From a virus: a DNA stretch of 26,779 nt. The DNA lies in IMG/VR virus record IMGVR_UViG_3300042516_003340, positions 1 through 26,779 of that record; one strand, given 5' to 3'. Of this stretch, positions 1 through 15,607 are shown one piece after another. Under the pieces are notes generated by a model, which was not told the origin of the DNA, made no database searches, and saw only the letters and a program-made list of their open reading frames with translations. Within the stretch, counting starts at the first letter, position 1, and each line of letters opens with the position of its first letter. A program made the translations under genes and the position numbers.

Positions 1-3000
1 GCAGGTAGTGCAGGTACAATAGGTGCAAATGGAAATAGCCAAGTAAGTGGAACTAGTGGTACCTCAGGTACTGCAGGTTCAAATGGTACAATAGGTGCTG
101 TTGGAGCTTCAGGTGCTAGTGGTTCTTCAGGAACTAGTGGAACAGCAGGTACTTCAGGAACTTCAGGTTCAGCAGGTACTTCAGGAACTTCAAATAATTC
201 AGGAACATCAGGAACATCAGGTACAAGCGGAACAGCAGGTTCAGCAGGTACAAATGGTTCATCTCAAATATCAGGTACTTCAGGTACTTCAGGTACAGCT
301 GGTTCAAGTGGTACTATTGGTGCTAATGGAAACAGTAACGTATCAGGAACAAGCGGAACAAGTGGAACTTCAGGTACAGCAGGTAGTACAGGAACAGGTG
401 GAAATTCAAATGTAGCTGGTACTTCAGGAACTAGTGGTACAAGTGGTACATCAGGTTCAATAGGTACTTCAGGAAATAGTGCAGTTAGTGGAACTAGTGG
501 TACTTCAGGTACTGCAGGTTCTTCAGGTACAATAGGTGCAAATGGTAATAGTCAAGTAAGTGGTACAAGCGGTACTAGTGGAACCTCAGGTTCAACTGGT
601 TCAGCAGGTACTGTAGGAGCTTCAGGTGCAAGTAGAACAGCAGGTACAAGCGGTACTTCAGGTACTTCAGGCACAGAAGGTAGCTCTGGTACCTCAGGTA
701 CAAGTAGAACAGCAGGTACAAGTGGAACTAGCGGTACTTCAGGTACTGAAGGTAGTGCAGGTACAAGTGGTACAAGCAGAGTATCAGGAACAAGTGGAAC
801 TTCAGGTACAGCAGGTTCAAGTGGTACAATTGGTGCAAACGGAAATAGTAACATTTCAGGTACTTCAGGTACTTCAGGAACTAGTGGAACAAGTGGTACT
901 GCAGGTAGTACAGGAACGTCAGGTGCTGCAGGTGCTGCTGGTACTTCAGGAACAGCAGGTACAAGTGGAACCCAAGGTTCAGTAGGTACTTCAGGAAATA
1001 GTGCAGCAAGTGGAACAAGCGGAACTTCAGGAACAGCAGGTTCAAGTGGTACAATTGGTGCTAATGGAAATTCTCAAATTAGTGGTACTAGCGGTACTAG
1101 TGGAACCTCAGGTTCAACTGGTTCAGCAGGTACTAATGGTGCTTCAGGAGCTTCAGGCTCAGCAGGTACATCAGGAACTTCAGGTACTAGCGGAACTCAA
1201 GGTTCAGCAGGAACAAGTGGTTCATCACAAGTTAGTGGCACATCAGGAACTAGTGGTACTTCAGGAACTCAAGGTTCATTAGGTACTAGTGGTTCTTCAC
1301 AAGCTTCAGGTACTTCAGGTACAAGCGGTACAGCAGGTAGTGCTGGTACAATAGGTGCAAATGGTAATAGTCAAATAAGTGGTACAAGCGGTACTAGTGG
1401 AACCTCAGGTTCAACTGGTTCAGCAGGTACAGCAGGTTCAAGTAGAACAGCAGGTACAAGTGGAACTAGCGGTACTTCAGGTACTGAAGGTTCAGTAGGT
1501 ACTAGTGGAAATAGTAGAGTATCAGGTACTAGTGGTACTAGCGGTACAGCAGGTAGTGCAGGAACAATAGGTGCAAATGGTATTTCACAAGCTTCAGGAA
1601 CTTCAGGAACAAGTGGTACCGCAGGTAGTAATGGTACAATAGGTGCTGTTGGAGCTTCAGGTGCTAGTGGTTCTTCAGGAACTAGTGGTACAAGTGGTAC
1701 ATCAGGAACTTCAGGTTCATTAGGTACATCAGGAGTTGCAGGAGCAGCAGGAACTAGTGGTACAAGTGGTACATCAGGAACTTCAGGTTCAATAGGAACA
1801 AGCGGTTCAAGTTCAGCTTCAGGAACTAGTGGTACTTCAGGTACTGCTGGTTCTTCAGGTACAATAGGTGCAAATGGTAATAGTCAAGTAAGTGGTACTT
1901 CAGGTACAAGCGGAACAGCTGGTTCAAATGGAACAGTAGGTGCTTCAGGTGCAAGCAGAACAGCAGGTACTTCAGGTACTTCAGGTACATCAGGAACTGA
2001 AGGTTCAGCTGGTACATCAGGTACAAGTAGAACAGCAGGTACAAGTGGTACATCAGGAACTTCAGGTACTGAAGGTTCAGCAGGTACATCAGGTACAAGC
2101 AGAGTTTCAGGTACAAGTGGAACAAGCGGAACAGCAGGTTCTTCAGGAACAATAGGTGCAAACGGAAACTCACAAGTTTCAGGTACATCAGGAACTTCAG
2201 GAACAGCTGGTTCAGCTGGAACATCAGGAATTGCAGGTGCTGCAGGAACATCAGGTACAAGTGGTACATCAGGAACTCAAGGTTCTACTGGAACAAGTGG
2301 TAATTCACAAGTATCAGGTACTTCAGGAACTTCAGGTACTGCAGGTTCTAGTGGAACTATAGGTGCTAATGGAAACTCACAAGTATCAGGTACTTCAGGT
2401 ACTTCAGGAACAGCAGGTTCAGCAGGTAGTACAGGTACTAATGGTGCTTCAGGTGCTAGTGGTTCTGCAGGTACAAGTGGTACTAGTGGAACAAGCGGAA
2501 CAGCAGGTTCTAATGGTACATCAGGAGTAGCAGGTGCTGCAGGAACAAGTGGTACATCTGGTACTTCAGGAACTCAAGGTTCTGCAGGTACAAATGGATC
2601 AAGTCAATTATCAGGTACTAGTGGAACAAGCGGAACTGCTGGTTCATCAGGTACTATAGGTGCTAATGGTAATTCACAAGTTAGTGGAACTTCAGGTACT
2701 AGCGGAACAAGTGGAACAGCAGGTTCAGCAGGTACAACGGGTTCATCAGGAGCTAGTAGAACAGCAGGTACATCAGGAACTTCAGGTACAAGCGGAACTG
2801 AAGGTTCAGCAGGTACATCAGGTACAAGCAGAACAGCAGGTACATCAGGAACTTCAGGTACAAGCGGAACTGAAGGTTCAGCAGGTACATCAGGAACAAG
2901 TAGAATATCAGGTACAAGCGGAACAAGCGGTACTTCAGGTACAGAAGGTTCAGCAGGTACTTCAGGTCAAAGTAGAAATAGTGGAACAAGTGGTACATCA

Positions 3001-6000
3001 GGTACTGCTGGTTCAAGTGGTACAATAGGTGCAAATGGTAATAGTCAAATAAGTGGTACTTCAGGTACATCAGGTACATCTGGCTCAACAGGTAGTGCAG
3101 GTACTAATGGTGCTTCAGGAGCTTCTGGTTCAGCAGGAACAAGTGGTACTTCAGGAACTTCAGGTACAGCAGGTAGTAATGGAACAAGTGGTTCAAGTTT
3201 AGCATCAGGTACTAGTGGTACAAGTGGTACAAGTGGTACAGCAGGTAGTGCAGGTACAAATGGTTCATCTCAAGTAAGTGGAACAAGTGGTACCTCAGGT
3301 ACTGCCGGTTCAAGTGGTACTATAGGTGCTAATGGTAATTCACAAGTTTCAGGTACTTCAGGTACATCAGGTACTTCAGGAACAGCAGGTTCAGCAGGAA
3401 CAAGTGGAGCTGCCGGTGCCGCAGGAACAAGTGGTACTAGCGGAACAAGCGGAACTCAAGGTTCAGCAGGTACTAGTGGTTCATCTCAAGTTAGTGGTAC
3501 AAGTGGAACAAGCGGAACAGCAGGTTCTTCAGGTACAATAGGCGCAAATGGTAATTCACAAGTAAGTGGAACTAGTGGTACATCAGGTACAGCAGGTAGT
3601 GCAGGTAGCGCTGGTACAGCTGGTTCAAGCAGAACGGCAGGTACAAGTGGTACAAGCGGTACTTCAGGTACAAGTGGTACTGAAGGTTCAGCAGGTACTT
3701 CAGGAACAAGTAGAACTTCAGGAACTTCAGGTACTAGTGGAACTAGTGGTACTGAAGGTTCTACAGGAACCTCAGGAAATAGTAGAGTATCAGGAACTAG
3801 TGGTACTAGTGGTACAGCTGGTTCAAGCGGTACAATTGGTGCAAACGGAAACTCACAAGTAAGTGGCACAAGCGGAACAAGTGGCACTTCAGGAACAGCT
3901 GGTTCAGCAGGAACATCAGGAGTTGCCGGTGCCGCAGGAACAAGTGGTACAAGCGGTACTTCAGGTACTCAAGGTTCAGCAGGTACTTCAGGAAATAGTT
4001 TAGTTAGTGGAACAAGTGGCACTTCAGGAACAGCTGGTTCTTCAGGAACAATAGGCGCAAATGGTAATTCACAAGTTAGTGGTACAAGTGGAACAAGTGG
4101 AACAAGTGGTTCAACTGGTTCAGCAGGTACTACAGGTGCTTCAGGTTTAAGCAGAACAGCTGGTACAAGTGGTACAAGTGGTACATCAGGTACTGAAGGT
4201 AGCGCAGGTACTTCAGGTACAAGTAGAACTTCTGGAACAAGTGGTACAAGCGGAACATCAGGTACTGAAGGCTCAAATGGAACTTCAGGAAATAGCAGAG
4301 TATCAGGAACAAGTGGTACATCAGGTACTGCAGGTTCAAGCGGTACTATAGGTGCTAATGGAAACAGTAATGCTTCAGGTACAAGTGGAACAAGCGGTAC
4401 TTCAGGTACAGCAGGTAGTGCAGGAACATCAGGAGCTGCCGGTGCCGCAGGAACAAGTGGTACAAGCGGAACTAGTGGAACTTCAGGTTCAGCAGGTACT
4501 TCAGGAAACAGCGCAGCAAGTGGAACAAGCGGTACCTCAGGAACAGCAGGTTCAAGTGGTACAATAGGAGCAAACGGAAACAGTCAAGTATCAGGTACTT
4601 CAGGAACTAGCGGAACTTCAGGTTCAACAGGTTCAGCAGGTACAGTAGGTAATTCAGGTGCAAGTAGAACAGCAGGTACAAGTGGCACATCAGGAACTTC
4701 AGGCACTGAAGGTAGTGCAGGTACAAGTGGTATAAGTAGAGCTTCAGGTACAAGCGGAACTTCAGGTACAAGCGGTACTGAAGGTAGCGTAGGCACAAGC
4801 GGTCAAAGCAGAGTAAGTGGTACATCAGGAACTAGCGGAACAGCAGGTTCATCAGGTACTATAGGTGCAAACGGAAATTCACAAGTTTCAGGTACTTCAG
4901 GTACTAGCGGAACAAGTGGAACAGCAGGTACAACTGGTAGTGCAGGAACATCAGGAGCTGCCGGTGCCGCAGGAACAAGTGGTACAAGCGGTACATCAGG
5001 AACAAGTGGTTCAACTGGTTCTAATGGCTCAAGTTCAGCATCAGGCACTTCAGGCACTTCAGGAACAGCTGGTTCTTCAGGAACAATAGGTGCAAATGGT
5101 GTAAGCCAAGTATCAGGAACAAGCGGAACTTCAGGTACAAGTGGTACAGCAGGTAGTGCAGGAACAACAGGTTCAGCAGGAGCTAGTAGAACAGCAGGTA
5201 CATCAGGTACAAGTGGTACTTCAGGTACAGAAGGCTCAGCAGGTACTTCAGGAACTAGCAGAACAGCTGGTACATCGGGAACAAGCGGAACAAGCGGTAC
5301 TGAAGGTAGTGCAGGTACATCAGGTACAAGTAGAGCTTCAGGAACTAGTGGTACTAGTGGTACTGCAGGTTCAAGCGGTACAATTGGTGCAAATGGAAAT
5401 TCACAAGTTAGTGGCACTTCAGGTACTAGTGGTACAAGTGGAACAGCAGGTTCAGCAGGTTCAAGTGGTACATCAGGTATTTCAGGTGCTGCAGGTATTT
5501 CAGGAGCAAGTGCTACATCAGGAACAAGCGGAACTTCAGGTTCTACAGGTTCAGCAGGTACTACAGGTGCTTCAGGTTCAAGTAGAACAGCTGGTACTTC
5601 AGGAACAAGTGGCACATCAGGTACTGAAGGTTCTGCAGGTACATCAGGTACAAGTAGAGCTTCAGGAACAAGTGGCACATCTGGTACTTCAGGTTCAAGT
5701 GGTACAATAGGTGCAAATGGAAATAGCAACGTATCAGGTACAAGTGGTACTTCAGGTACATCAGGTACAGCAGGTTCAGCAGGTTCAAATGGTACAGGTG
5801 GAAACGCAGGTGCTAGTGGAGCAAGTTCAACATCAGGTACAAGCGGAACTTCAGGTTCAACTGGTTCAGCAGGTACAGTAGGTGCTTCAGGTGCAAGTAG
5901 AACAGCAGGCACAAGTGGCACTTCAGGAACAAGTGGTTCAACTGGTTCAAACGGAACATCAGGTCCAAGCGGAACAAGTCAAGTATCAGGAACAAGTGGT

Positions 6001-7599
6001 ACCAGTGGTTCAACAGGTTCAAATGGTACTATAGGTGCTAACGGTATTAGTCAAGTATCAGGTACATCAGGTACTTCAGGTACAGCAGGTAGCGCAGGTA
6101 CAGTAGGTGCTTCAGGTGCAAGTAGAACAGCAGGCACAAGTGGTACTTCAGGTACTTCAGGTTCAACTGGTTCAAATGGAACAGCAGGTCCTTCAGGAAT
6201 AAGTAATACATCAGGTACAAGCGGAACTTCAGGTTCTACTGGTTCAAATGGTACAGCAGGTCCTAGTGGAACAAGTAACGCAAGTGGCACTTCAGGTACT
6301 TCAGGTACAGCAGGTTCATATGGAACATTAGGAAATAGTGGTTCATCACAACCATCAGGTACAAGTGGAACAAGTGGTACAGCTGGTTCAGCAGGTACAA
6401 TAGGTGCAGATGGTAATAGTAATGCCTCAGGTACATCAGGTACAAGCGGAACTTCAGGTTCTACTGGTTCAAATGGTACAGCAGGCCCAAGCGGAACAAG
6501 CAACATAAGTGGTACATCAGGTACATCAGGTACTGCCGGTTCATCAGGTACTATTGGTGCAAATGGTAACTCACAAGTATCAGGTACAAGTGGCACATCA
6601 GGAACAGCTGGTTCAAATGGAACAGTAGGTGCTTCAGGTACAAGTAGAACTTCAGGTACTTCAGGTACTAGTGGTTCAAATGGAACAACCGGAGCTACAG
6701 GTGCTCCTGGAATTTCTGGTGAGAGTGGTACTAGTGGTACATCAGGTACAGCAGGTAGCGCAGGTACAATAGGTGCTAACGGAAACAGTAACATATCAGG
6801 AACTAGTGGAACTTCAGGTACAGCTGGTTCAGCAGGTTCAGCAGGTACATCAGGAACAAGTAGAACAGCAGGTACTTCAGGTACAAGTGGTACTTCAGGT
6901 ACTGAAGGATCAAATGGGGCAAGTGGAGCTACAGGTGCTCCTGGAATTTCTGGTGAGAGTGGTACTAGTGGTACATCAGGTACAGCAGGTAGCGCAGGTA
7001 CAGCAGGTACAACAGGTGCTGGAGGAATCTCAAGACAATCAGGAACTTCAGGTACAAGTGGTACAGAAGGTACCTCAGGTTTATCATTTAATGGTACTTC
7101 AGGTATTAGTGGTGGTGGTACATTTACAAACGAACCTGACTATTTAGTAAGAACTACAGGTACAACAACAATACAAAGTATATCGTTCTTATATGCTGAT
7201 ACTACAAATAGTAGATTAGGTCTTAGTACAACATCTCCTAGCTATCCATTCCATGTAAATGCAGACGTAAGTGGTGTATCTATATACGCATCAAATGATA
7301 TCCAAGCATTCTCTGATAAAAGAGTAAAAGGTGATATTAAAGTAGTAGAAGATGCTATTAACAAAATTAACCAAATTAACGGTGTAACATTTATAAGAAC
7401 TGATGATACTGAAGGTTACAAAGGTAGACATGCTGGTGTAATTGCTCAAGAAGTTGAATTAGTACTTCCAGAAGTAGTACTTACAGATGCTAAAACAGGA
7501 ATGAAATCAGTAGCATATGGTAACTTAAATGCTCTATTAATTGAAGCAATTAAAGAATTAAGTAAAGAAGTTGAAGAATTAAAAAAACAAATTAAATAA
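1..7599 (+). CDS. Giant collagen-like tail fibre with C-terminal S74 chaperone (5' partial)
   Basis: Frame 1 stays open from the first base to a TAA at 7597-7599, giving 2,532 visible residues; the true start lies outside the window. The only in-frame ATG is at 7501, far inside the C-terminal domain, so a start-to-stop search misses the gene. Residues 1 to about 2360 are Gly-X-Y triplets, mostly G-T-S, G-T-A and G-S-A. A short non-repeat neck follows (about 2363-2437). The end is a peptidase S74 domain with an SDKRVK motif (Ser2438, Lys2443), a GVIAQEVE motif, and a helical, probably coiled-coil tail. S74 domains drive trimerisation of phage fibres and then cut themselves off at the Ser. This fits a trimeric triple-helical fibre, probably a tail or side fibre used for adsorption. 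The receptor is unknown and no separate receptor-binding domain is visible, so that part may lie upstream. Confidence 0.93.
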   Translation, partial: AGSAGTIGANGNSQVSGTSGTSGTAGSNGTIGAVGASGASGSSGTSGTAGTSGTSGSAGTSGTSNNSGTSGTSGTSGTAGSAGTNGSSQISGTSGTSGTAGSSGTIGANGNSNVSGTSGTSGTSGTAGSTGTGGNSNVAGTSGTSGTSGTSGSIGTSGNSAVSGTSGTSGTAGSSGTIGANGNSQVSGTSGTSGTSGSTGSAGTVGASGASRTAGTSGTSGTSGTEGSSGTSGTSRTAGTSGTSGTSGTEGSAGTSGTSRVSGTSGTSGTAGSSGTIGANGNSNISGTSGTSGTSGTSGTAGSTGTSGAAGAAGTSGTAGTSGTQGSVGTSGNSAASGTSGTSGTAGSSGTIGANGNSQISGTSGTSGTSGSTGSAGTNGASGASGSAGTSGTSGTSGTQGSAGTSGSSQVSGTSGTSGTSGTQGSLGTSGSSQASGTSGTSGTAGSAGTIGANGNSQISGTSGTSGTSGSTGSAGTAGSSRTAGTSGTSGTSGTEGSVGTSGNSRVSGTSGTSGTAGSAGTIGANGISQASGTSGTSGTAGSNGTIGAVGASGASGSSGTSGTSGTSGTSGSLGTSGVAGAAGTSGTSGTSGTSGSIGTSGSSSASGTSGTSGTAGSSGTIGANGNSQVSGTSGTSGTAGSNGTVGASGASRTAGTSGTSGTSGTEGSAGTSGTSRTAGTSGTSGTSGTEGSAGTSGTSRVSGTSGTSGTAGSSGTIGANGNSQVSGTSGTSGTAGSAGTSGIAGAAGTSGTSGTSGTQGSTGTSGNSQVSGTSGTSGTAGSSGTIGANGNSQVSGTSGTSGTAGSAGSTGTNGASGASGSAGTSGTSGTSGTAGSNGTSGVAGAAGTSGTSGTSGTQGSAGTNGSSQLSGTSGTSGTAGSSGTIGANGNSQVSGTSGTSGTSGTAGSAGTTGSSGASRTAGTSGTSGTSGTEGSAGTSGTSRTAGTSGTSGTSGTEGSAGTSGTSRISGTSGTSGTSGTEGSAGTSGQSRNSGTSGTSGTAGSSGTIGANGNSQISGTSGTSGTSGSTGSAGTNGASGASGSAGTSGTSGTSGTAGSNGTSGSSLASGTSGTSGTSGTAGSAGTNGSSQVSGTSGTSGTAGSSGTIGANGNSQVSGTSGTSGTSGTAGSAGTSGAAGAAGTSGTSGTSGTQGSAGTSGSSQVSGTSGTSGTAGSSGTIGANGNSQVSGTSGTSGTAGSAGSAGTAGSSRTAGTSGTSGTSGTSGTEGSAGTSGTSRTSGTSGTSGTSGTEGSTGTSGNSRVSGTSGTSGTAGSSGTIGANGNSQVSGTSGTSGTSGTAGSAGTSGVAGAAGTSGTSGTSGTQGSAGTSGNSLVSGTSGTSGTAGSSGTIGANGNSQVSGTSGTSGTSGSTGSAGTTGASGLSRTAGTSGTSGTSGTEGSAGTSGTSRTSGTSGTSGTSGTEGSNGTSGNSRVSGTSGTSGTAGSSGTIGANGNSNASGTSGTSGTSGTAGSAGTSGAAGAAGTSGTSGTSGTSGSAGTSGNSAASGTSGTSGTAGSSGTIGANGNSQVSGTSGTSGTSGSTGSAGTVGNSGASRTAGTSGTSGTSGTEGSAGTSGISRASGTSGTSGTSGTEGSVGTSGQSRVSGTSGTSGTAGSSGTIGANGNSQVSGTSGTSGTSGTAGTTGSAGTSGAAGAAGTSGTSGTSGTSGSTGSNGSSSASGTSGTSGTAGSSGTIGANGVSQVSGTSGTSGTSGTAGSAGTTGSAGASRTAGTSGTSGTSGTEGSAGTSGTSRTAGTSGTSGTSGTEGSAGTSGTSRASGTSGTSGTAGSSGTIGANGNSQVSGTSGTSGTSGTAGSAGSSGTSGISGAAGISGASATSGTSGTSGSTGSAGTTGASGSSRTAGTSGTSGTSGTEGSAGTSGTSRASGTSGTSGTSGSSGTIGANGNSNVSGTSGTSGTSGTAGSAGSNGTGGNAGASGASSTSGTSGTSGSTGSAGTVGASGASRTAGTSGTSGTSGSTGSNGTSGPSGTSQVSGTSGTSGSTGSNGTIGANGISQVSGTSGTSGTAGSAGTVGASGASRTAGTSGTSGTSGSTGSNGTAGPSGISNTSGTSGTSGSTGSNGTAGPSGTSNASGTSGTSGTAGSYGTLGNSGSSQPSGTSGTSGTAGSAGTIGADGNSNASGTSGTSGTSGSTGSNGTAGPSGTSNISGTSGTSGTAGSSGTIGANGNSQVSGTSGTSGTAGSNGTVGASGTSRTSGTSGTSGSNGTTGATGAPGISGESGTSGTSGTAGSAGTIGANGNSNISGTSGTSGTAGSAGSAGTSGTSRTAGTSGTSGTSGTEGSNGASGATGAPGISGESGTSGTSGTAGSAGTAGTTGAGGISRQSGTSGTSGTEGTSGLSFNGTSGISGGGTFTNEPDYLVRTTGTTTIQSISFLYADTTNSRLGLSTTSPSYPFHVNADVSGVSIYASNDIQAFSDKRVKGDIKVVEDAINKINQINGVTFIRTDDTEGYKGRHAGVIAQEVELVLPEVVLTDAKTGMKSVAYGNLNALLIEAIKELSKEVEELKKQIK
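13..7080 (+). repeat. Gly-X-Y repeat tract with a 513-nt higher-order period
   Basis: The tract carries 26 copies of an anchor reading GTIGA(N/D)G followed by a triplet in which Gly is replaced. The anchors start at 13, 310, 526, 823, 1048, 1345, 1561, 1858, 2146, 2353, 2650, 3019, 3316, 3532, 3829, 4045, 4342, 4558, 4855, 5080, 5377, 5701, 6025, 6394, 6547 and 6763. The spacing is 297 nt ten times and 216 nt six times. From 3316 to 4855 the two alternate strictly, making a 513-nt (171-residue) unit. Every spacing is a multiple of 9 nt, so the triplet phase is never lost between anchors. Confidence 0.92.
6691..7002 (+). repeat. Identical 78-nt direct repeat inside the fibre gene
   Basis: Bases 6691-6768 and 6925-7002 are identical by eye, offset by 234 nt (26 Gly-X-Y triplets). 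Both copies encode the only GAPGISGESG segments of the protein. The other repeats in this gene differ by many synonymous changes, so exact identity suggests a recent internal duplication or gene conversion near the 3' end of the tract. Confidence 0.85.
7312..7599 (+). other. Peptidase S74 chaperone domain (self-cleaved C-terminus)
   Basis: This is the part of the fibre expected to be released after self-cleavage. The Ser codon is at 7312 and the Lys codon at 7327, five residues apart, matching the Ser-Lys pair of endosialidase-type intramolecular chaperones. The GVIAQEVE segment and the YGNLNALLIEAIKEL-type helix are also typical. The predicted cut is just before Ser2438, removing about 95 residues. 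The residue assignment rests on family knowledge and was not modelled. Confidence 0.85.
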
Positions 7600-7604
7600 A
7601 TAAA

Positions 7605-8267
7605 ATGGCAGTTCCATCTACAAACGTAAAATTTAGTGACATATGGAGTGAGGCTAATGGTACCTATTCTACAGGTATCCTTAGCTTAAACACCATGAGT
7701 TTTTTTTCATATTTTGCTGGCCCTAGTGGTTCAAATTCCCAACCAGACAATAATTGGGGTCAAGGTGAAGCATCAGGTGTAAATAGAATATACGGCACTA
7801 CTGCTAAAACAACAAATATTCAAGTTCGTGATTTTGAGGGGTTAACATATTTTTATGATAATTCTACATTTCAAGTAACTTTAAATATTACTAATAATTT
7901 AGTATCTAGTTTAGGTATAGATAATGATGTTAACGTAAACGTTGAACTATACGATTCAAGTTCTTCATATCAATATTTAGCAGGAGGAGGTATGGCAGCA
8001 GCTCCTGGTACTTTTGGACCAACTGCAATTAGCAATATAAATACCCCTATTATTTTTAGAGGATATTGGATAGTAACAGTTGGTGGAGCTTTTCCTTCAT
8101 TTGCGGGGGGTACATGTAATATTGACATAAATGGATTTAACTTTGTAACTGGGGGTACAGTTCCAATCAAGACTAGTGCTAGTTTTGACTCAACTGTATT
8201 TGGTACTGCAGATGTAGATGCCTTTAATGGATTTACAGGATTATATTTTGATGTAACTGTTAACTAA
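7605..8267 (+). CDS. Virion structural protein, probably fibre- or tail-associated
   Basis: A 220-residue protein starting 5 nt after the fibre stop, in the A-rich leader AAATAAATAAAATGGCA, almost the same leader as the tail tube gene. Its N-terminus (NVKFSDIWSEANGTYSTG, then ISLN-like and SGSNS segments) resembles a motif found at the start of many myovirus structural and fibre-tip proteins, where a 'SFSDI..E' stretch is followed by short Ser/Gly-rich elements. The rest is rich in beta-prone, Asn/Thr/Gly-rich sequence (for example the VTLNITNN and VNVNVELYD stretches), as expected for a beta-sandwich. There is no signal peptide or membrane segment. Its position directly after the fibre suggests a fibre tip, adaptor or decoration. 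The family link is by eye only. Confidence 0.6.
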   Translation: MAVPSTNVKFSDIWSEANGTYSTGILSLNTMSFFSYFAGPSGSNSQPDNNWGQGEASGVNRIYGTTAKTTNIQVRDFEGLTYFYDNSTFQVTLNITNNLVSSLGIDNDVNVNVELYDSSSSYQYLAGGGMAAAPGTFGPTAISNINTPIIFRGYWIVTVGGAFPSFAGGTCNIDINGFNFVTGGTVPIKTSASFDSTVFGTADVDAFNGFTGLYFDVTVN

Positions 8268-8269
8268 CT

Positions 8270-8488
8270 ATGATAATAAATGATTGGATATCAACATACG
8301 AATTTTTAGGTTATGCTCCTAATGATGCTTTAAAACAGGAAATATACAACAAAACAATTGAGGTAGGTACTGGGTGGGAAAAAGGCAATCCAAAAAATCC
8401 AAATGAATATCCTTATTTAAGAAAAATAAGTTATTATTCACAAGCATTTTTACAACAATATTTTCAAGATAAAGTAGGAAATCCTTAA
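8270..8488 (+). CDS. Small protein of unknown function
   Basis: A 72-residue protein whose ATG lies 2 nt after the previous stop, so it is probably translated with the gene at 7605. It is rich in Tyr, Asn and Lys, has no Cys, no membrane segment and no motif I recognise, and looks like a small soluble helical protein (for example the LRKISYYSQAFLQQYFQDK stretch near the C-terminus). Many phages carry similar small proteins next to fibre genes, some of them fibre-assembly helpers, but nothing in this sequence shows that role. Its tight spacing and normal codon use support it being real. Confidence 0.6.
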   Translation: MIINDWISTYEFLGYAPNDALKQEIYNKTIEVGTGWEKGNPKNPNEYPYLRKISYYSQAFLQQYFQDKVGNP

Positions 8489-8518
8489 TAAGTTTGGTAA
8501 TTTAATATCTTGTTATTA

Positions 8519-8526
8519 TATTTATT
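8519..8526 (+). promoter_or_regulatory. TATTTATT, near-match to the recurrent upstream motif
   Basis: One base differs from the TATTTATA 8-mer found upstream of the tail genes. It lies in the 52-nt gap before the first glycosyltransferase gene and ends 14 nt before its ATG. If it is a promoter element it would make the glycosyltransferase cassette a separate unit. Confidence 0.35.
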
Positions 8527-8540
8527 AAAAATAAGTTATT

Positions 8541-10529
8541 ATGAAAAAATTGTTGTATATTGCTCCCCATTTATCAACTGGTGGACTTCCTCAATATTTA
8601 ACTAAAAAAATAGAATTACTTAAAGATGAATTTGAAATTTATCTTATAGAATGGGCAGATGTTACTGGTGGTAGATTAGTTGTAACAAAAAATAAAATCT
8701 TAAAATTAGTTAAACCTAATAGATTTTTTACATTAGGTGAAAATAAAATGGAATTAATGGATATTGTTAATCGTATCCAACCTGATATTATTCATAATGA
8801 GGAAATTCCTGAATTTTATATGGATTTTGAAGTTGCTTCTGCTTTATATAATCCTAAAAGAAAATATATTATAATAGAAACATCACATGATTCATCATTT
8901 GATACTACTCAGAAAAAGTTTTTTCCGGATAAATTTATGTTTGTGTCGGATTGGCAAATTCAACAATATAAAGATATTGATATTCCTCGCGTATTAGTTG
9001 AATATCCTATTGAATATATAAAACGTCCCGACCGTAAAGAGGCATTGCGTAAACTACAACTAGATACAACTAAAAAACACATTTTACACGTAGGGTTATA
9101 TACCTCTCGTAAAAATCAAGCGGAATTTTTTGAATATGCTAGACAGTTTCCTGAATATGAATTTCATAGTTTAGGTAATAGAGCTGATAATTTTAAATGG
9201 TATTGGGAACCATTAGCTCAAAATACTCCTCCAAATTTAACGTGGTGGGATGAAAGAACAGATGTAGATAATTTCTATCAGGCAATGGATTTATTTTTAT
9301 TTACATCACGTGGTTCAGCTAATGATAAAGAAACAATGCCTTTAGTTATTCGTGAGGCAATTTCATATCAAATCCCAACATTAATTTATAATTTAGAGGT
9401 ATATCAAAACTATTTTGATAAATTTGATATAGTTGATTATCTTGATTTTAGTAGTTTTGAAAATAATTGTGAATTAATTAAAGAAATTTTAGAAACAGAA
9501 GAAGAAATTTATCCGGAACAAGAAGCAATAATTATTTCAACATACCCTGTTCAACAAAGTATTATAGATTCAACTAAAGAATGTATTGAATCATTTAAAC
9601 AAACAGGTAGAAAAATTATATTAACCTCACACGTTCCCATTCCTCAAGAATTACAAGAATTAGTAGATTACTGTGTTTATGATAAAAATAACCTATTAAC
9701 TAAACATGATTTTTATTATTATTGTTGGGTTGATTATGGACATTTTTTAGTAAATACTTTATTACAAGGAGAAGGTAATGATGTGTATCATGGTCCTGCT
9801 GTTTATACAAATTATTATAATGCAGCTTCATTAGCAAAAAATATAGGATTTAAAAAATTATATTTTACTAATTATGATTACATTTTAACTAATCCAGAAT
9901 TCATTAATAATATATCATTTATATTAAATAAAAAAAAAGCATATGTGGATGAACGTGAATATCCTGAAGGAATGGTAAGTGCAACATTTTTCTTCGGTAT
10001 ACAAACTAATTTTTTCTTTAAAACACACGAATTTATATCTACTGCTACCGAATATGATAATTTAAAAAACAAAGTTGGTAGTTTTTCTAATGGATATGAA
10101 AATATTTTTCATTTTGCTTTAAAACCTTTTAAAGATCAAATTCATATAGAAAGTAGTGAAAATTGGGATGGGTTAATTGCTAAAAATTTTAAACATAATA
10201 ATTTTTCTCGAGTAGAATATACAACTGTTTTACCATCTAATGTAGAAAACCATTTTGCTATTTATTATCAAAACTCAAATGAATCAGATAATAGAACTTT
10301 AATTGTAAGTGGTGAAGAAGAAGGAGTAGAAACATTTAGTGAAAAAATAGACATTACTCATAAATTTGCTTGGTATAGATTATATCAATTTATGGGGAAA
10401 GAGATTACATTTAGGTTTAAATTTTATGATGCCTTTGATAACAAATTCCTTAATGAAAAAGTTATTGTAGTTAATCAAGATTATTTAGATAATAAAATCC
10501 AATTAAACGGAAATTTAGAAACAAAATAA
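8541..10529 (+). CDS. Two-domain glycosyltransferase (GT-B plus GT-A-like)
   Basis: A 662-residue protein. Residues 1 to about 320 form a GT-B glycosyltransferase of the GT4 type: a first Rossmann strand (KKLLYIAPHLSTGGLPQYL), a second domain opening with HILHVGLYTSRKNQ, and a clear E-x7-E motif at Glu264 and Glu272 that binds the nucleotide-sugar in this group. Residues about 327-560 look like a second, GT-A-like transferase: an IIISTYPVQQ strand, ILTSHVPIP, and an NYD segment around Asp446 where a DxD-like metal site would lie. The last 90 residues are beta-rich. No signal peptide or membrane helix is visible, so it should act in the host cytoplasm. Its stop shares one base with the next start (TAATG). 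A fused enzyme could add two sugars in sequence. Donor and acceptor are unknown; the neighbouring fibre is a plausible acceptor. Confidence 0.8.
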   Translation: MKKLLYIAPHLSTGGLPQYLTKKIELLKDEFEIYLIEWADVTGGRLVVTKNKILKLVKPNRFFTLGENKMELMDIVNRIQPDIIHNEEIPEFYMDFEVASALYNPKRKYIIIETSHDSSFDTTQKKFFPDKFMFVSDWQIQQYKDIDIPRVLVEYPIEYIKRPDRKEALRKLQLDTTKKHILHVGLYTSRKNQAEFFEYARQFPEYEFHSLGNRADNFKWYWEPLAQNTPPNLTWWDERTDVDNFYQAMDLFLFTSRGSANDKETMPLVIREAISYQIPTLIYNLEVYQNYFDKFDIVDYLDFSSFENNCELIKEILETEEEIYPEQEAIIISTYPVQQSIIDSTKECIESFKQTGRKIILTSHVPIPQELQELVDYCVYDKNNLLTKHDFYYYCWVDYGHFLVNTLLQGEGNDVYHGPAVYTNYYNAASLAKNIGFKKLYFTNYDYILTNPEFINNISFILNKKKAYVDEREYPEGMVSATFFFGIQTNFFFKTHEFISTATEYDNLKNKVGSFSNGYENIFHFALKPFKDQIHIESSENWDGLIAKNFKHNNFSRVEYTTVLPSNVENHFAIYYQNSNESDNRTLIVSGEEEGVETFSEKIDITHKFAWYRLYQFMGKEITFRFKFYDAFDNKFLNEKVIVVNQDYLDNKIQLNGNLETK

Positions 10530-11470
10530 TGAAGATTTGCCAAGTACATCCAGGTTGCGGAATACCAGTACCACCAGTAGCATGGGGTGCTGTAGAAAAA
10601 ATTGTATGGGAACTTACTTGTAATCTTAGAGAATTAGGACATGAAGTAGATATTAAATATGCTGCTGAGATTTATCCAGGTGAATATGATATAGTAATGG
10701 TTCATGTAGCTAATTTAGCTTTATTTCTTGCTGATAGAGATATACCTTATATTTTTCAACATCACGATCATCATGCTTTTCATTATGGTAAGGATTCATC
10801 TGTGTATAAGGAAAATTTAGAGGCAATGGAAAAATCTATTTTTTCATTAGTACCTGCTCGTTATTTAGTTGATTATTTTGATACAGATAAAGTATATTAT
10901 TTTTCACATGGAGCAGATATAACTAAATTTTATCCAAACGAAACTTATCCTATAAATCATAGTTTATTAATGTTAGCAAATAACGGATTAGGTGGTTATG
11001 GTTCATATGATAGAAAAGGATTTGGATTAGGTGTACAGGTAGCAATGTCTCGTAATTTACCAATTACAATAGCTGGTCCTAGAAATAATGAAAATTGGCT
11101 TAATGATAATCCATGGGTTAAAGGATATCCTAAATTAAATATTATTTGGGAACCTTCAAACGAACAACTAAGACAACTTTATACATCCCATACTATATTT
11201 CTTCATCCATCAGACTTGGAAGCTGGACATCCTAATCTTACATTACTAGAGGCAGCAGCTTGTGGTTTACCTGTTTTAGGATGGATTGAAATGGAAACAG
11301 TATTTCATGGATTATGGAGAGCACCAAGAGATTTAAATGAAATGTTACGCGGTTTAGACACTATTATAAATGAGTATGATGAATATAGACAACGTTCATT
11401 AAATACTGCTCAAGAATTATCATGGTTTAATCGCTCAAAAGAATTAATAGAATTATACAATAATATATGA
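10529..11470 (+). CDS. GT4-like glycosyltransferase
   Basis: A 313-residue GT-B protein. The N-terminus (MKICQVHPG, then a Gly-Ala-Val-Glu segment before a helix) is the usual GT4 acceptor-side start. The C-terminal half has ITIAGPR, a WEPSNEQLRQLY helix and the segment LHPSDLEAGHPNLTLLEAAACGLPV. In classical GT4 enzymes this last segment holds an E-x7-E pair. Here the second Glu (Glu241) is present, but the residue eight positions before it is Gly and the nearest Glu is two residues further upstream, so the site is a variant. At 313 residues it is shorter than a typical GT4 of about 350-400. Translation is coupled on both sides (TAATG upstream, ATGA downstream), so it works with its neighbours. 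Substrate unknown. Confidence 0.82.
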   Translation: MKICQVHPGCGIPVPPVAWGAVEKIVWELTCNLRELGHEVDIKYAAEIYPGEYDIVMVHVANLALFLADRDIPYIFQHHDHHAFHYGKDSSVYKENLEAMEKSIFSLVPARYLVDYFDTDKVYYFSHGADITKFYPNETYPINHSLLMLANNGLGGYGSYDRKGFGLGVQVAMSRNLPITIAGPRNNENWLNDNPWVKGYPKLNIIWEPSNEQLRQLYTSHTIFLHPSDLEAGHPNLTLLEAAACGLPVLGWIEMETVFHGLWRAPRDLNEMLRGLDTIINEYDEYRQRSLNTAQELSWFNRSKELIELYNNI

Positions 11471-12669
11471 AAGAAGTTTTAATTAACGAGTATGGTAATA
11501 CTAAAATATTAGGATTACCTCACAAAAAACCCGAAAATATTTTTAACATAAATTTTATGGATGGTGCTTTTGTAGAAGTCTTAGGACCCTTACAAAAAAC
11601 ATACCATATAAAATTTATTAATACTAAAACTAACCGAGTTTTATTTGAAAACACTATTACTAATAATATGTGGACTCGTACTAATATTAAGTACTTGGTT
11701 AAATGGCGTATTGAAATCTATGATAAAGAAAGTGGATTTAAAGTTTTAGAACATAACTTTGAACCTGAAGGTAAAAGAATTTATATCCATTTAGATTCAG
11801 GAGCATTAGGTGATACATTAGCTTGGTTTCCTATAATTGATGAATTTAGAAAAGAAAATAAATGCGAAGTAGTATGTTCTACATTTCATAATGAATGGTT
11901 TGAAGGAAATTATCCTGAATTAAGATTTGCTAAACCAGGAGAAGAAGTACATAATTTGTATGGTATGTTTACTATTGGATGGTTTTATGATGATAAAAAA
12001 GTTGTTTATGATAGAACACCAATTGACTTTAAAAAATATCCGTTACAACAAACCGCAACAGAAATATTAGGAATGAAATACCGAGAGGTAAAACCAAAAT
12101 TAATTACCCCTGAACGTAAAACAGATATTGAAGGTAAATACGTTGTAATAGCACCTCATGCTTCAGCACATGCTAAGTATTGGAACCATTCAGGTGGATG
12201 GCAAACCGTTATTGATTATTTAAATGAAAAAGGTTATAAAGTTGTTATGTTAACAGCAGAACCATTAAATGATGAATGGCATGATTCAAAATTAGGAGGT
12301 ACATTAACAGGTGTTATTGATAAAACAGGATTTAATATTCCATTAGAAGATAGAATGGTAGATATTAGAGATGCTGATTTATTTATTGGATTAGGTAGTG
12401 GATTAAGTTGGTTAAGTTGGGGACTAAATACACCTACAGTATTAATTTCAGGATTTAGTTATCCATATACTGAATTTCAAGATTGTGAACGTTTATTTCC
12501 TAAAGACCCTAAAACATGTAGAGGATGTTTTAATCGCCAATGGCTAAATCCAGGTGATTGGGAATGGTGTCCTGACCATAAAGATACACCACGTCATTTT
12601 GAATGTACAAAAGTTATTGAACCTTCTCAAGTGATTGAATCTATTAATAAACTTTTACATATTTATTAG
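11467..12669 (+). CDS. TibC/AAH-family protein O-heptosyltransferase-like enzyme
   Basis: A 400-residue protein with the layout of the bacterial autotransporter heptosyltransferases, which transfer heptose from ADP-heptose to many Ser/Thr residues of repetitive surface proteins such as TibA and AIDA-I. Residues 1 to about 105 are a beta-rich N-terminal domain, followed by the hallmark GDTLAW (115-120) and FPIIDEFR, a VVIAPHAS strand, SGGWQTVIDYL, and GLGSGLSWLSWGLNTPTVLI leading to SGFSYPYTEF. The end carries four cysteines, Cys351, Cys354, Cys368 and Cys380 (CX2CX13CX11C), matching the position of the family's iron-binding finger. The start overlaps the previous stop (ATGA). In this family the N-terminal barrel helps hold the protein substrate. 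No autotransporter is visible; the giant Thr/Ser-rich fibre is the obvious candidate substrate. Family assignment is confident; substrate is inference, and the sugar may not be heptose. Confidence 0.85.
   Translation: MKEVLINEYGNTKILGLPHKKPENIFNINFMDGAFVEVLGPLQKTYHIKFINTKTNRVLFENTITNNMWTRTNIKYLVKWRIEIYDKESGFKVLEHNFEPEGKRIYIHLDSGALGDTLAWFPIIDEFRKENKCEVVCSTFHNEWFEGNYPELRFAKPGEEVHNLYGMFTIGWFYDDKKVVYDRTPIDFKKYPLQQTATEILGMKYREVKPKLITPERKTDIEGKYVVIAPHASAHAKYWNHSGGWQTVIDYLNEKGYKVVMLTAEPLNDEWHDSKLGGTLTGVIDKTGFNIPLEDRMVDIRDADLFIGLGSGLSWLSWGLNTPTVLISGFSYPYTEFQDCERLFPKDPKTCRGCFNRQWLNPGDWEWCPDHKDTPRHFECTKVIEPSQVIESINKLLHIY
12660..12667 (+). promoter_or_regulatory. TATTTATT, near-match to the recurrent motif
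   Basis: It overlaps the last codons and stop of the heptosyltransferase-like gene and ends 3 nt before the next ATG. That is too close to act as a -10 box for that start, so it is a weak candidate, though it could serve the sheath gene further down. Confidence 0.2.
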
Positions 12670-12971: not shown

Positions 12972-15071
12972 ATGGCAGAAACATTAATATCTCCGGGTGT
13001 ATTAGCGTTAGAAAATGACAATTCTTTCGTTTCCGCGCAACCAATCACCGTTGGAGCAGCTATCGTCGGTCCAACAGTAAAAGGTCCTGTTGAGGTTCCA
13101 ACAATTGTTCGCTCATATAGCGATTATCAAAACAAATTTGGTACAACTTTTTTAAGTGCTAGCCAAGTTTATACTTATTTTACCTCAGTAGCGGCTTTTA
13201 ACTATTTTAACAATGGTGGTCAAACATTATTAGTAACAAGAGTAGTAAGTGGAACTTTTGATTCTGCAGATTCAACTCCTATTGTTAATGCAAATTTAGC
13301 AACAACAGCCTCCGTTACTGTTAGTAGTGCTAGTTTAGCTCCTTTTATTACTCCTACGGGATCGTTTTTAATTAATGGAATCACAATTGCTGTTACTGGA
13401 AGTACAACACCTGCTAATACAGCAACAATAATATTTGTAGCCTCAGGTTCAACACCAGCAAATACAGTTACAGCTATTGTAGCAGCATTTAATGCTAGTT
13501 CTTCTGTAGCTCCATATAGTTCTTCATTACAATACATTGTTGCTAGTGCTTCTGGATCTACTGGTTTATTCTTTAATACAACATCTTCACAAATTGGAAC
13601 TACTTTCTCAGCAGATACTTTAAATGCTTATACTTTTGTATCTGGAAGTACTACTACTTTATTTAGTGGAGCTACCAATACTGAAGCTTTAGTATTAACA
13701 ACTTTATCTGAAGGAGCTATTATGAATAGTTCTAGTTCATTAGATGTAAGTGGTTCATTAGCCTCAGGTTCAGCAGATAATATTAGATGGCAAATTCAAA
13801 ACCGTGATACAAGCTCAGGTACATTTACTTTATTAATCCGTCAAGGAGATGATAACGCAGTTAATCCTGTTATATTAGAATCTTGGACTAATTTATCAAT
13901 GGATCCAACAGCTCCAAATTATGTAGCTAGATTAATTGGTAACCAATACAAACAATATAATGCAGCTGATAATCAAATTGAAGTAATTGGTGATTATCCA
14001 ACTAATTCAAGATATGTTTATGTATCTAGTGTTTTAACACCAACTCCATTATATTTTGATAATAATGGAAATGCAAAATCACAATATACTAGTTCAATTC
14101 CAGTTAATGCAAGTGGTTCATTTATAGGAGCTACAGGTACTTTAAATACTGGAATCAATGCTGATTATAATAATAATATTGATGTAGCTTCAACAAATAC
14201 ACAAGGTTTAACAGGTAGTGATTACACTAACATGATTAACTTAATGGCTAATGCTGATGATTACCAATATAATGTATTATTAACTCCTGGTTTATTTGCA
14301 TCAACCTCAAATTTAGGTTCATCACAAGTAACTACAGCAATTAATAACACAATGAATAGAGGAGATGCTATTTATGTAGTAGATTTAGTACCATTTAGCT
14401 CAAGTATCAATGACGTAACTACTCAAGCAAATGCTAAAAATAATTCATACGCTGCAACATATTGGCCTTGGGTTCAAACAATTGATCCAGATTCTGCTCA
14501 ATTAATTTGGGTACCAGCTTCTACAATGGTAGGTGGTGTTTATGCTTACAATGATAACGTAGCAGAACCTTGGTTTGCACCAGCAGGTATTAACAGAGGT
14601 GGATTAAGTACAGTAGTTAGAGCTGAGAAAAAATTATCTCAAGCAAACCGTGATACTTTATATCAAAACAAAGTTAATCCAATTGCAACATTCCCTGGAA
14701 CAGGAGTTGTAGTATACGGACAGAAAACATTACAAACTAAAGCATCTGCTTTAGATCGTGTAAGTGTTCGTAGATTATTAATCCAACTTAAAGGATATAT
14801 TTCTCAAGTAGCTCAAAACTTAGTGTTTGAACAAAACAGTATCGCTACAAGAAACCAATTCTTAAGTCAAGTTAATCCATACTTAGAATCAGTACAACAA
14901 AGACAAGGTTTGTATGCTTTCAAAGTAATCATGGATGACTCAAACAACACCGCTGACGTAATCGACAGAAACCAGATGGTAGGTCAAATTTATATTCAAC
15001 CTACTAAGACTGCTGAATTCATTTACTTGGATTTCAACATCTTGCCAACTGGAGCAGTTTTTCCAGCGTAA
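12972..15071 (+). CDS. Tail sheath protein (gp18-like)
   Basis: A 699-residue protein, close in size to T4 gp18. The N-terminus (ISPGVLALENDNSF, then VGAAIVGPTVKGPV and IVRSYSDYQNKFG) is the classic sheath start that forms the inner part of the contractile layer. The C-terminus (SVRRLLIQLKGYISQVAQNL, FEQNSIATRNQFLSQVNPYL, and MVGQIYIQPTKTAEFIYLDF) is the conserved core that links neighbouring subunits. Residues about 100-240 are a Ser/Thr/Ala-rich insertion with little similarity to known sheaths, probably the surface-exposed domain that varies between phages. The ends use more C- and G-ending codons than the middle. The sheath contracts around the tube to drive it through the host envelope. 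It starts an A-rich-leader gene with no Shine-Dalgarno and is followed by the tube gene. Confidence 0.95.
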   Translation: MAETLISPGVLALENDNSFVSAQPITVGAAIVGPTVKGPVEVPTIVRSYSDYQNKFGTTFLSASQVYTYFTSVAAFNYFNNGGQTLLVTRVVSGTFDSADSTPIVNANLATTASVTVSSASLAPFITPTGSFLINGITIAVTGSTTPANTATIIFVASGSTPANTVTAIVAAFNASSSVAPYSSSLQYIVASASGSTGLFFNTTSSQIGTTFSADTLNAYTFVSGSTTTLFSGATNTEALVLTTLSEGAIMNSSSSLDVSGSLASGSADNIRWQIQNRDTSSGTFTLLIRQGDDNAVNPVILESWTNLSMDPTAPNYVARLIGNQYKQYNAADNQIEVIGDYPTNSRYVYVSSVLTPTPLYFDNNGNAKSQYTSSIPVNASGSFIGATGTLNTGINADYNNNIDVASTNTQGLTGSDYTNMINLMANADDYQYNVLLTPGLFASTSNLGSSQVTTAINNTMNRGDAIYVVDLVPFSSSINDVTTQANAKNNSYAATYWPWVQTIDPDSAQLIWVPASTMVGGVYAYNDNVAEPWFAPAGINRGGLSTVVRAEKKLSQANRDTLYQNKVNPIATFPGTGVVVYGQKTLQTKASALDRVSVRRLLIQLKGYISQVAQNLVFEQNSIATRNQFLSQVNPYLESVQQRQGLYAFKVIMDDSNNTADVIDRNQMVGQIYIQPTKTAEFIYLDFNILPTGAVFPA

Positions 15072-15118: not shown

Positions 15119-15607
15119 ATGGCAGTATTAGATCCAAACGAAATATTTTTCACAGCATTTGAACCAAAACAGGCAAACCGCTTTATCATGTATATTGATG
15201 GTATCCCTGCATATGAAATTAAAGGTGTAGGTGCAGTGAATTTAACTCAAGGTACAGTTCCTTTAAATCACATTAACGTACAACGTTTTGTAAAAGGTAA
15301 AACAACTTGGGGTACCATTCAATTTACATTATTCGATCCTATTACACCTTCAGGTGCTCAGGCAGTAATGGAATGGGTACGTTTACATCACGAATCAGTA
15401 ACAGGTCGTGATGGTTATAGTGATTTTTATAAGAAAGACTTAACATTTGACGTATTAGGACCAGTAGGTGATATTGTTTCAGAATGGATTATCAAAGGTG
15501 CATTGATTACCGAATCAAATTTTGGAGACTACAACTGGGATACTGAAAACACAGCTGTAAATATTACAATGACAGTTCAACCAGATTATTGTGTGTTGAA
15601 TTTCTAA
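15119..15607 (+). CDS. Tail tube protein (gp19-like)
   Basis: A 162-residue protein, the usual size for a T4-type tube subunit (T4 gp19 is 163). It begins PNEIFFTAFEPKQANRFIMY, with the conserved 'F.P...NRF' entry, followed by IDGIPAYEIKGV and a KGKTTWGTIQFTLFDPITP strand pair. It ends ITESNFGDYNWDTENTAVN and a final VQPDYCVL strand, matching the beta-barrel order of tail tube and Hcp-like proteins. Six copies per ring form the inner conduit for DNA. It directly follows the sheath and is closed by a strong terminator, which would let this highly needed pair be expressed at its own level. The leader AAATAAATAAAATGGCAGT is shared with the gene at 7605. Confidence 0.93.
   Translation: MAVLDPNEIFFTAFEPKQANRFIMYIDGIPAYEIKGVGAVNLTQGTVPLNHINVQRFVKGKTTWGTIQFTLFDPITPSGAQAVMEWVRLHHESVTGRDGYSDFYKKDLTFDVLGPVGDIVSEWIIKGALITESNFGDYNWDTENTAVNITMTVQPDYCVLNF

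Follow-up and report, generated by a model that had tools for sequence, protein, structure and literature searches.

A candidate phage-encoded O-glycosylation module beside a giant Thr/Ser-rich collagen-like tail fibre

Gene content of the tail locus

The window, i.e., the whole stretch of DNA analysed here, is a 26,779-base virus contig that covers a myovirus tail region. Its genes are arranged in the order fibre, a 220-aa gene, two glycosyltransferase genes (GT1 and GT2), and a TibC-like gene, after which come sheath, tube, and other tail genes. The features considered below are as follows.

1..6990, + strand: fibre repeat of 2,330 aa with Gly-X-Y periodicity (GTS/GTA/GSS triplets), its 5' end cut off by the contig edge, from the open frame, PF01391, and triplet count
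6991..7599, + strand: C-terminus of the fibre, a Peptidase_S74 intramolecular chaperone, from PF13884 and PHROG matches
7605..8267, + strand: 220-aa gene without a known family, following the fibre and conserved in relatives
8541..10529, + strand: GT1, with a GT4-type N-terminal half and a C-terminal half (9516-10526) of GT-A-like fold plus C-terminal beta-sandwich, from profile matches and a structure model
10529..11470, + strand: GT2, a GT4-type glycosyltransferase, from profile matches
11467..12669, + strand: protein O-heptosyltransferase of the TibC/AAH family (BAHT), from TIGR04414 and the TibC structure
12972..15071, + strand: tail sheath, from profile and PHROG matches (context; basis of a matched control)
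15119..15607, + strand: tail tube homologue, from its position and similarity in sheath-locus relatives (context)

Three coupled glycosyltransferase genes had originally been noted within 1 kb of the fibre, which agrees with the distances found: GT1 starts 942 bp downstream of the fibre stop, with the 220-aa gene in between. Calling the cassette genes coupled is fair, as GT2 overlaps GT1 by 1 base and the TibC-like gene overlaps GT2 by 4 bases. Because GT1 comprises two domains, the cassette holds four glycosyltransferase-like domains.

The nearest isolate by sheath similarity is Flavobacterium phage immuto (47%), for which a 45-kb stretch contained neither a TibC match nor a Gly-X-Y fibre. 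The sole match in the genome collection came from a Winogradskyella MAG, on a phage-like contig that carries the same module. These two relationships make a host within the Flavobacteriia likely, which is not to say that it has been shown.

A giant Thr/Ser-rich collagen-like fibre

The fibre is encoded by a single open frame (1-7599) of 2,532 aa, whose start lies off the contig. Gly opens 698 of 777 triplets (90%) in the first 2,330 residues, with mostly Thr at position X (456), mostly Ser at position Y (485), and almost no proline. The repeat thereby contains 483 Thr and 621 Ser, together 1,104, and bears out the original prediction of a Thr/Ser-rich frame with more than 2,300 Gly-X-Y residues. 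PF01391 produced 59 matches in the frame, all above cut-off either singly or together with their neighbours. With a profile match above cut-off and Gly at each third residue, the fibre qualifies as collagen-like. It does not qualify as an uninterrupted Gly-X-Y repeat, as every 8-9 triplets another residue stands, in phase, in the place of Gly, and on account of these interruptions we refer to the fibre as collagen-like and not as collagen. The codons are mixed (GGT 470/GGA 203; ACA 277/ACT 191; TCA 322/AGT 195), and the repeat is therefore coded and not the product of simple DNA slippage. The C-terminus matches Peptidase_S74 (PF13884, 3.8e-15) as well as long-tail-fibre families in PHROGs. A collagen triple helix rises by about 0.29 nm per residue; if the fibre repeat indeed formed such a helix, which is inferred, it would be approximately 0.65 micrometre long.

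The triplets without Gly (~10%) are spaced by exactly 8 (55 times) or 9 (9 times) triplets and otherwise mostly by multiples thereof. This in-phase replacement every 8-9 triplets in the clade of the window is a new detail. The replacement triplets (1-6990) read QVS, RTA, RVS, and similar. The 8/9-triplet spacing is common to the clade (L009, L050, L053, L080, L081, L087, and L102) and absent from Mel-JY01-type fibres.

A glycosyltransferase of the TibC/AAH family

The product of 11467-12669 matches TIGR04414 (autotransporter O-heptosyltransferase) with 301.9 bits over residues 27-396, which passes the curated cut-off of 200 bits, and aligns to the TibC structure 4rap with E=8e-60 over residues 21-396. 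Models of lipopolysaccharide heptosyltransferases scored much lower (RfaQ, 45.8 bits). The family had originally been proposed from a GDTLAW segment and a four-Cys finger; both are present, at residues 115-120 and at Cys 351, 354, 368, and 380, respectively, and the assignment holds. Asp110, Lys230, Trp305, Arg286, Pro300, and the four finger Cys were shown to be important in TibC, and the finger is required for dodecamer formation and protein-substrate recognition (PMC4358343). The catalytic Asp110, Lys230, and Trp305 correspond to D116, K237, and W315 of the window enzyme, and Cys339/342/358/370 of the iron finger to C351/C354/C368/C380. Among 118 distinct phage TibC homologues, the catalytic residues were kept in 118/118, as were the four Cys.

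Other positions of the active site are less uniform. Arg286, which contacts adenine in TibC, corresponds to R296 in the window but is kept in just 58/118 phage homologues, and the sugar donor may therefore vary among phage TibCs. Ser stands at the position of Thr226, which we scored as compatible with the phosphate/adenine contact. At the stereoselectivity position, the window enzyme and 106/118 phage homologues have Gly in place of Pro300. Every sequence test run places the window enzyme in the BAHT family; its heptosylation activity is inferred. None of the PHROGs families matches the TibC-like protein, and we found no published link between TibC-type enzymes and phages in the open-licence literature.

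TibC and Thr/Ser-rich fibres co-occur in viral contigs

To judge by composition of the fibre, we compared 50 contigs chosen solely by the GTSGTSGTSGTA DNA pattern (GTS set) with 50 contigs chosen by the collagen pattern GPKGDKGD. TibC was detected in 29 of the 50 GTS contigs (27 above cut-off) and in 0/50 GPKGDKGD contigs (Fisher p=1e-11). When the comparison was restricted to contigs that reach 40 kb or more, the respective fractions were 22/33 and 0/16 (p=5e-6). The sets were not corrected for phylogeny, and the two searched sets partly overlap. The 21 GTS contigs without a detected TibC could be fragments, encode other enzymes, or lack glycosylation.

TibC relatives were also gathered from virus contigs by two queries and clustered at 85% identity. 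A Thr/Ser-rich Gly-X-Y frame was present in the locus of 40/55 TibC lineages for which 6 kb or more of upstream sequence was available, and of 24/31 with full flanks. Adjacency alone is weak evidence, as tail-fibre regions are gene-rich hot spots. We set observed distances against random placement in 12 contigs of 70-115 kb that had the fibre pattern and TibC anywhere: TibC lay at most 6 kb from a Thr/Ser-rich Gly-X-Y frame in ten of them, with 2.0 expected (combined p=9e-8). This set replaced an earlier whole-contig test that had included contigs with already known nearby fibres. A stretch-based adjacency test gave no enrichment (6 seen, 4.5 expected); whole-contig distances were used because the fetched stretches reach little beyond a single pattern match. 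TibC-like genes equally common in phages without Ser/Thr-rich fibres would have refuted the original prediction, an outcome opposite to that of the set comparison.

The tail sheath served as a matched control. Sheath relatives without TibC had no collagen repeat in 12/12 contigs, whereas one was present in every sheath relative in which TibC lay close and sufficient upstream sequence was available; it was missing from two whose TibC was distant. As these contigs are fragmentary and were partly picked after an early look, we consider the control supporting evidence only.

The linkage of TibC and fibre is kept where the module sits away from the sheath (G017) and where the pair is inverted (L079). 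Fused pairing occurs in Microcystis phage Mel-JY01 and in a 735-kb phage: GT4-type enzyme and TibC form one 1,226-aa protein that adjoins the GTS fibre in Mel-JY01 and one 743-aa protein close to a Gly-X-Y frame in LR756501. Exceptions exist. TibCs of a clade of ~384 aa (L456, L462, L477, L480, and others) have no large Gly-X-Y fibre nearby and adjoin large non-collagen structural proteins, with Gly-X-Y only short or distant. The 636-kb phage LR756504 encodes TibC and GmhA in the absence of a collagen repeat, and in L048 and L051 the end of the fibre beside the cassette contains YadA-head-like repeats. These exceptions suggest that the substrates of TibC may differ in kind among phages.

Candidate sugar donor genes

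HldE-kinase-like proteins (TIGR02198) and HldD-like epimerases are encoded near TibC or elsewhere in TibC-carrying phages; the best family of the latter was TIGR02197, with 191 and 208 bits, below cut-off. HldE-kinase matches were present in 11/50 TibC contigs and full-length in two large phages, HldD-like matches in 6/50, and GmhA matches in 3/50, one of them above cut-off; most ADP-heptose gene matches fell under the family cut-offs. Among the 11 contigs with an HldE-kinase match is G001, whose TibC is 84% identical to that of the window. Most TibC contigs have no ADP-heptose genes, and the donor is thus probably supplied by the host. The 26.8-kb fragment analysed here likewise has none, so that the term self-contained, as originally applied to the module, is too strong for the window.

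Proposed fibre glycosylation and alternative explanations

We propose that the cassette is a phage-encoded O-glycosylation module for the giant Thr/Ser-rich collagen-like tail fibre, a reading to which we assign a probability of about 75% in the absence of biochemical or mass data. TibC and fibre travel together in many related viruses, and the virus therefore probably coats its own fibre. Briefly, the TibC-type enzyme would act inside the infected cell and put sugar on many Thr and Ser of the Gly-X-Y region or the nascent fibre, with both the acceptor and its sites being inferred. The transferred sugar would most likely be heptose from ADP-heptose; heptose as the first sugar and the nature of the donor are likewise deduced and not observed. 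GT1 and GT2 might then extend or cap this sugar, as might FkbM-type methyltransferases in relatives, although the order of action and the extension roles are inferred. The donor would derive from the host; in certain relatives, HldE/HldD/GmhA-like enzymes of the phage would contribute to it. The fibre sugar might confer stability or protease resistance, mask the fibre, or serve adhesion. The original claim that the cassette decorates the fibre has gained comparative support from co-occurrence, adjacency, rearrangements, and fusions, but remains unproven biochemically. The accompanying argument that sugar on Thr stabilises the helix does not carry over directly, as Thr is mostly at X in the window and at Y in the GPT repeats of BclA3. 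Together with the in-phase interruptions, this makes stabilisation the weakest step.

Alternatively, the cassette could modify lipopolysaccharide or other surface glycans of the host and thereby block superinfection, which is the usual reading for pelagimyophages. In the pelagimyophage study, glycosyltransferases, rfaE, and collagen repeats are described and the sugar genes are interpreted as modifying the host O-chain (PMC7029224), and, as generic enzymes of the GT4 type, GT1 and GT2 would fit such a role. TibC, however, falls into a protein-modifying equivalog family with far higher scores than for RfaQ, and its invariant four-Cys finger is the element needed for dodecamer formation and recognition of a protein substrate (PMC4358343). 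Host-surface modification also does not predict that TibC tracks fibre composition. We thus regard it as unlikely, albeit not negligible.

More doubtful still is that TibC targets another Ser/Thr-rich virion protein, with the collagen-like part as a bystander. Candidates are the 220-aa product, the YadA-like part of the fibre, or a Ser-rich protein that relatives encode upstream of the sheath. The YadA-head-like repeats of L048 and L051 and the TibC clades without large Gly-X-Y are compatible with this, as is L110, in which a protein with 30% Ser is encoded near a distant TibC and a collagen repeat is missing. Yet no other protein of the window comes close to the Gly-X-Y fibre in Thr/Ser richness, TibC is associated at the level of contigs with GTS repeats, and the contig holding L051 also carries a collagen-like frame. 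Least probable in our view is mere hitch-hiking, i.e., that TibC and GTS fibres share aquatic myovirus lineages and a recombination hot spot without any enzyme-substrate relation. The contigs do stem mostly from aquatic metagenomic viruses, and the partial overlap and missing phylogenetic correction noted above leave room for it. The association nevertheless holds over TibC copies that are 37-96% identical and occur in varied positions, orientations, and fusions, while sheath relatives without TibC are also without the fibre. Nothing in the data points to DNA glycosylation as a role of the cassette.

Comparison with known systems

The window enzyme shares family, catalytic D, K, and W, and four Cys with the BAHT systems of E. 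coli, TibC-TibA and AAH-AIDA-I. BAHT genes adjoin their repetitive surface substrate, much as the window gene adjoins its putative one, but the known TibC substrates are beta-helical autotransporters and not collagen-like rods (PMC4358343). The phage enzyme instead neighbours a Gly-X-Y tail fibre; the missing autotransporter concerns the partner and not the enzyme family. Phage TibCs further differ in sharing an operon with GT4-type enzymes or being fused to them, and in the Gly at the Pro300 position.

The nearest proven parallel for a collagen-like repeat glycosylated by an adjacent enzyme is SgtA-BclA3 of C. difficile. The sgtA gene is located immediately upstream of that for BclA3, and sugars are added to Thr of the collagen repeat, with Ser also accepted (PMC7157674). 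A glycosyltransferase gene beside a collagen-like protein gene is also what the window shows; BclA of B. anthracis belongs with this parallel. In contrast to the phage enzyme, SgtA is a bacterial, spore-coat-specific GlcNAc transferase, and the BclA3 repeats contain proline, which the X=Thr, Y=Ser repeat of the window almost lacks.

The host-recognition cluster of pelagimyophages, which are T4-like aquatic phages, resembles the window in having glycosyltransferases beside tail fibres; TibC family membership and a link to fibre composition are not described for them in the available portion of the source (PMC7029224). Gly-X-Y repeats are also reported in collagen-like tail proteins of phages and prophages (PHROG 1806, EPcl proteins; PMC3368898). 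Fibre contigs with the GPKGDKGD pattern differed from the window in having no TibC.

We know of no TibC-type enzyme associated with tail proteins of the PHROG 1806 or EPcl type. The evidence is evenly balanced on whether virion glycosylation is widespread among phages, with TibC-type enzymes densely coating giant collagen-like fibres with heptose-based glycans, aided by glycosyltransferases and methyltransferases that are fused to them or share their operon, and sometimes by phage ADP-heptose genes. If so, viruses of bacteria would have, in the phage fibre, their own equivalent of glycosylated collagen or mucin. Protein heptosylation, known from bacterial autotransporters, would then also occur in phage virions and on collagen-like substrates. 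Many phage glycosyltransferases that are now presumed to alter host lipopolysaccharide would be re-assigned, and fibre glycosylation offers a testable function for them. The combination of a GTS-repeat fibre and TibC is a cheap genomic predictor, and Mel-JY01 is an isolated phage that has both.

Partner proteins and accessory domains of the cassette

A domain related to GT2 is the one fused to TibC in LR756501. The 220-aa gene directly follows the fibre in several lineages; profile searches revealed no known family for its product, whose model is beta-rich but of low confidence (pLDDT 58), and a role as fibre tip or partner is possible. PDB profile searches with this protein and with the C-terminal half of GT1 returned nothing useful. 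The high-confidence model of the GT1 half (pLDDT 94.7) consists of the GT-A-like domain and the beta-sandwich, with nucleotide-sugar enzymes, glycogenin, and collagen galactosyltransferase as best fold matches at modest TM-scores of ~0.35.

L110 has tandem TibC-like genes (L110:4936-8132), one of which is fused to a GT4-type domain. Extra ORFs precede GT1 in L051 (L051:5348-7078), one with a tentatively sulfotransferase-like start, SSLPRAGST. FkbM or other methyltransferase domains are fused to or inserted in the cassettes of L483 (1826-6736), L428 (8795-11767), and L456 (7701-9950), suggesting capping of the sugar by methylation. The C-terminal half of GT1 (9516-10526) has relatives in 88 loci and represents a previously unrecognised domain.
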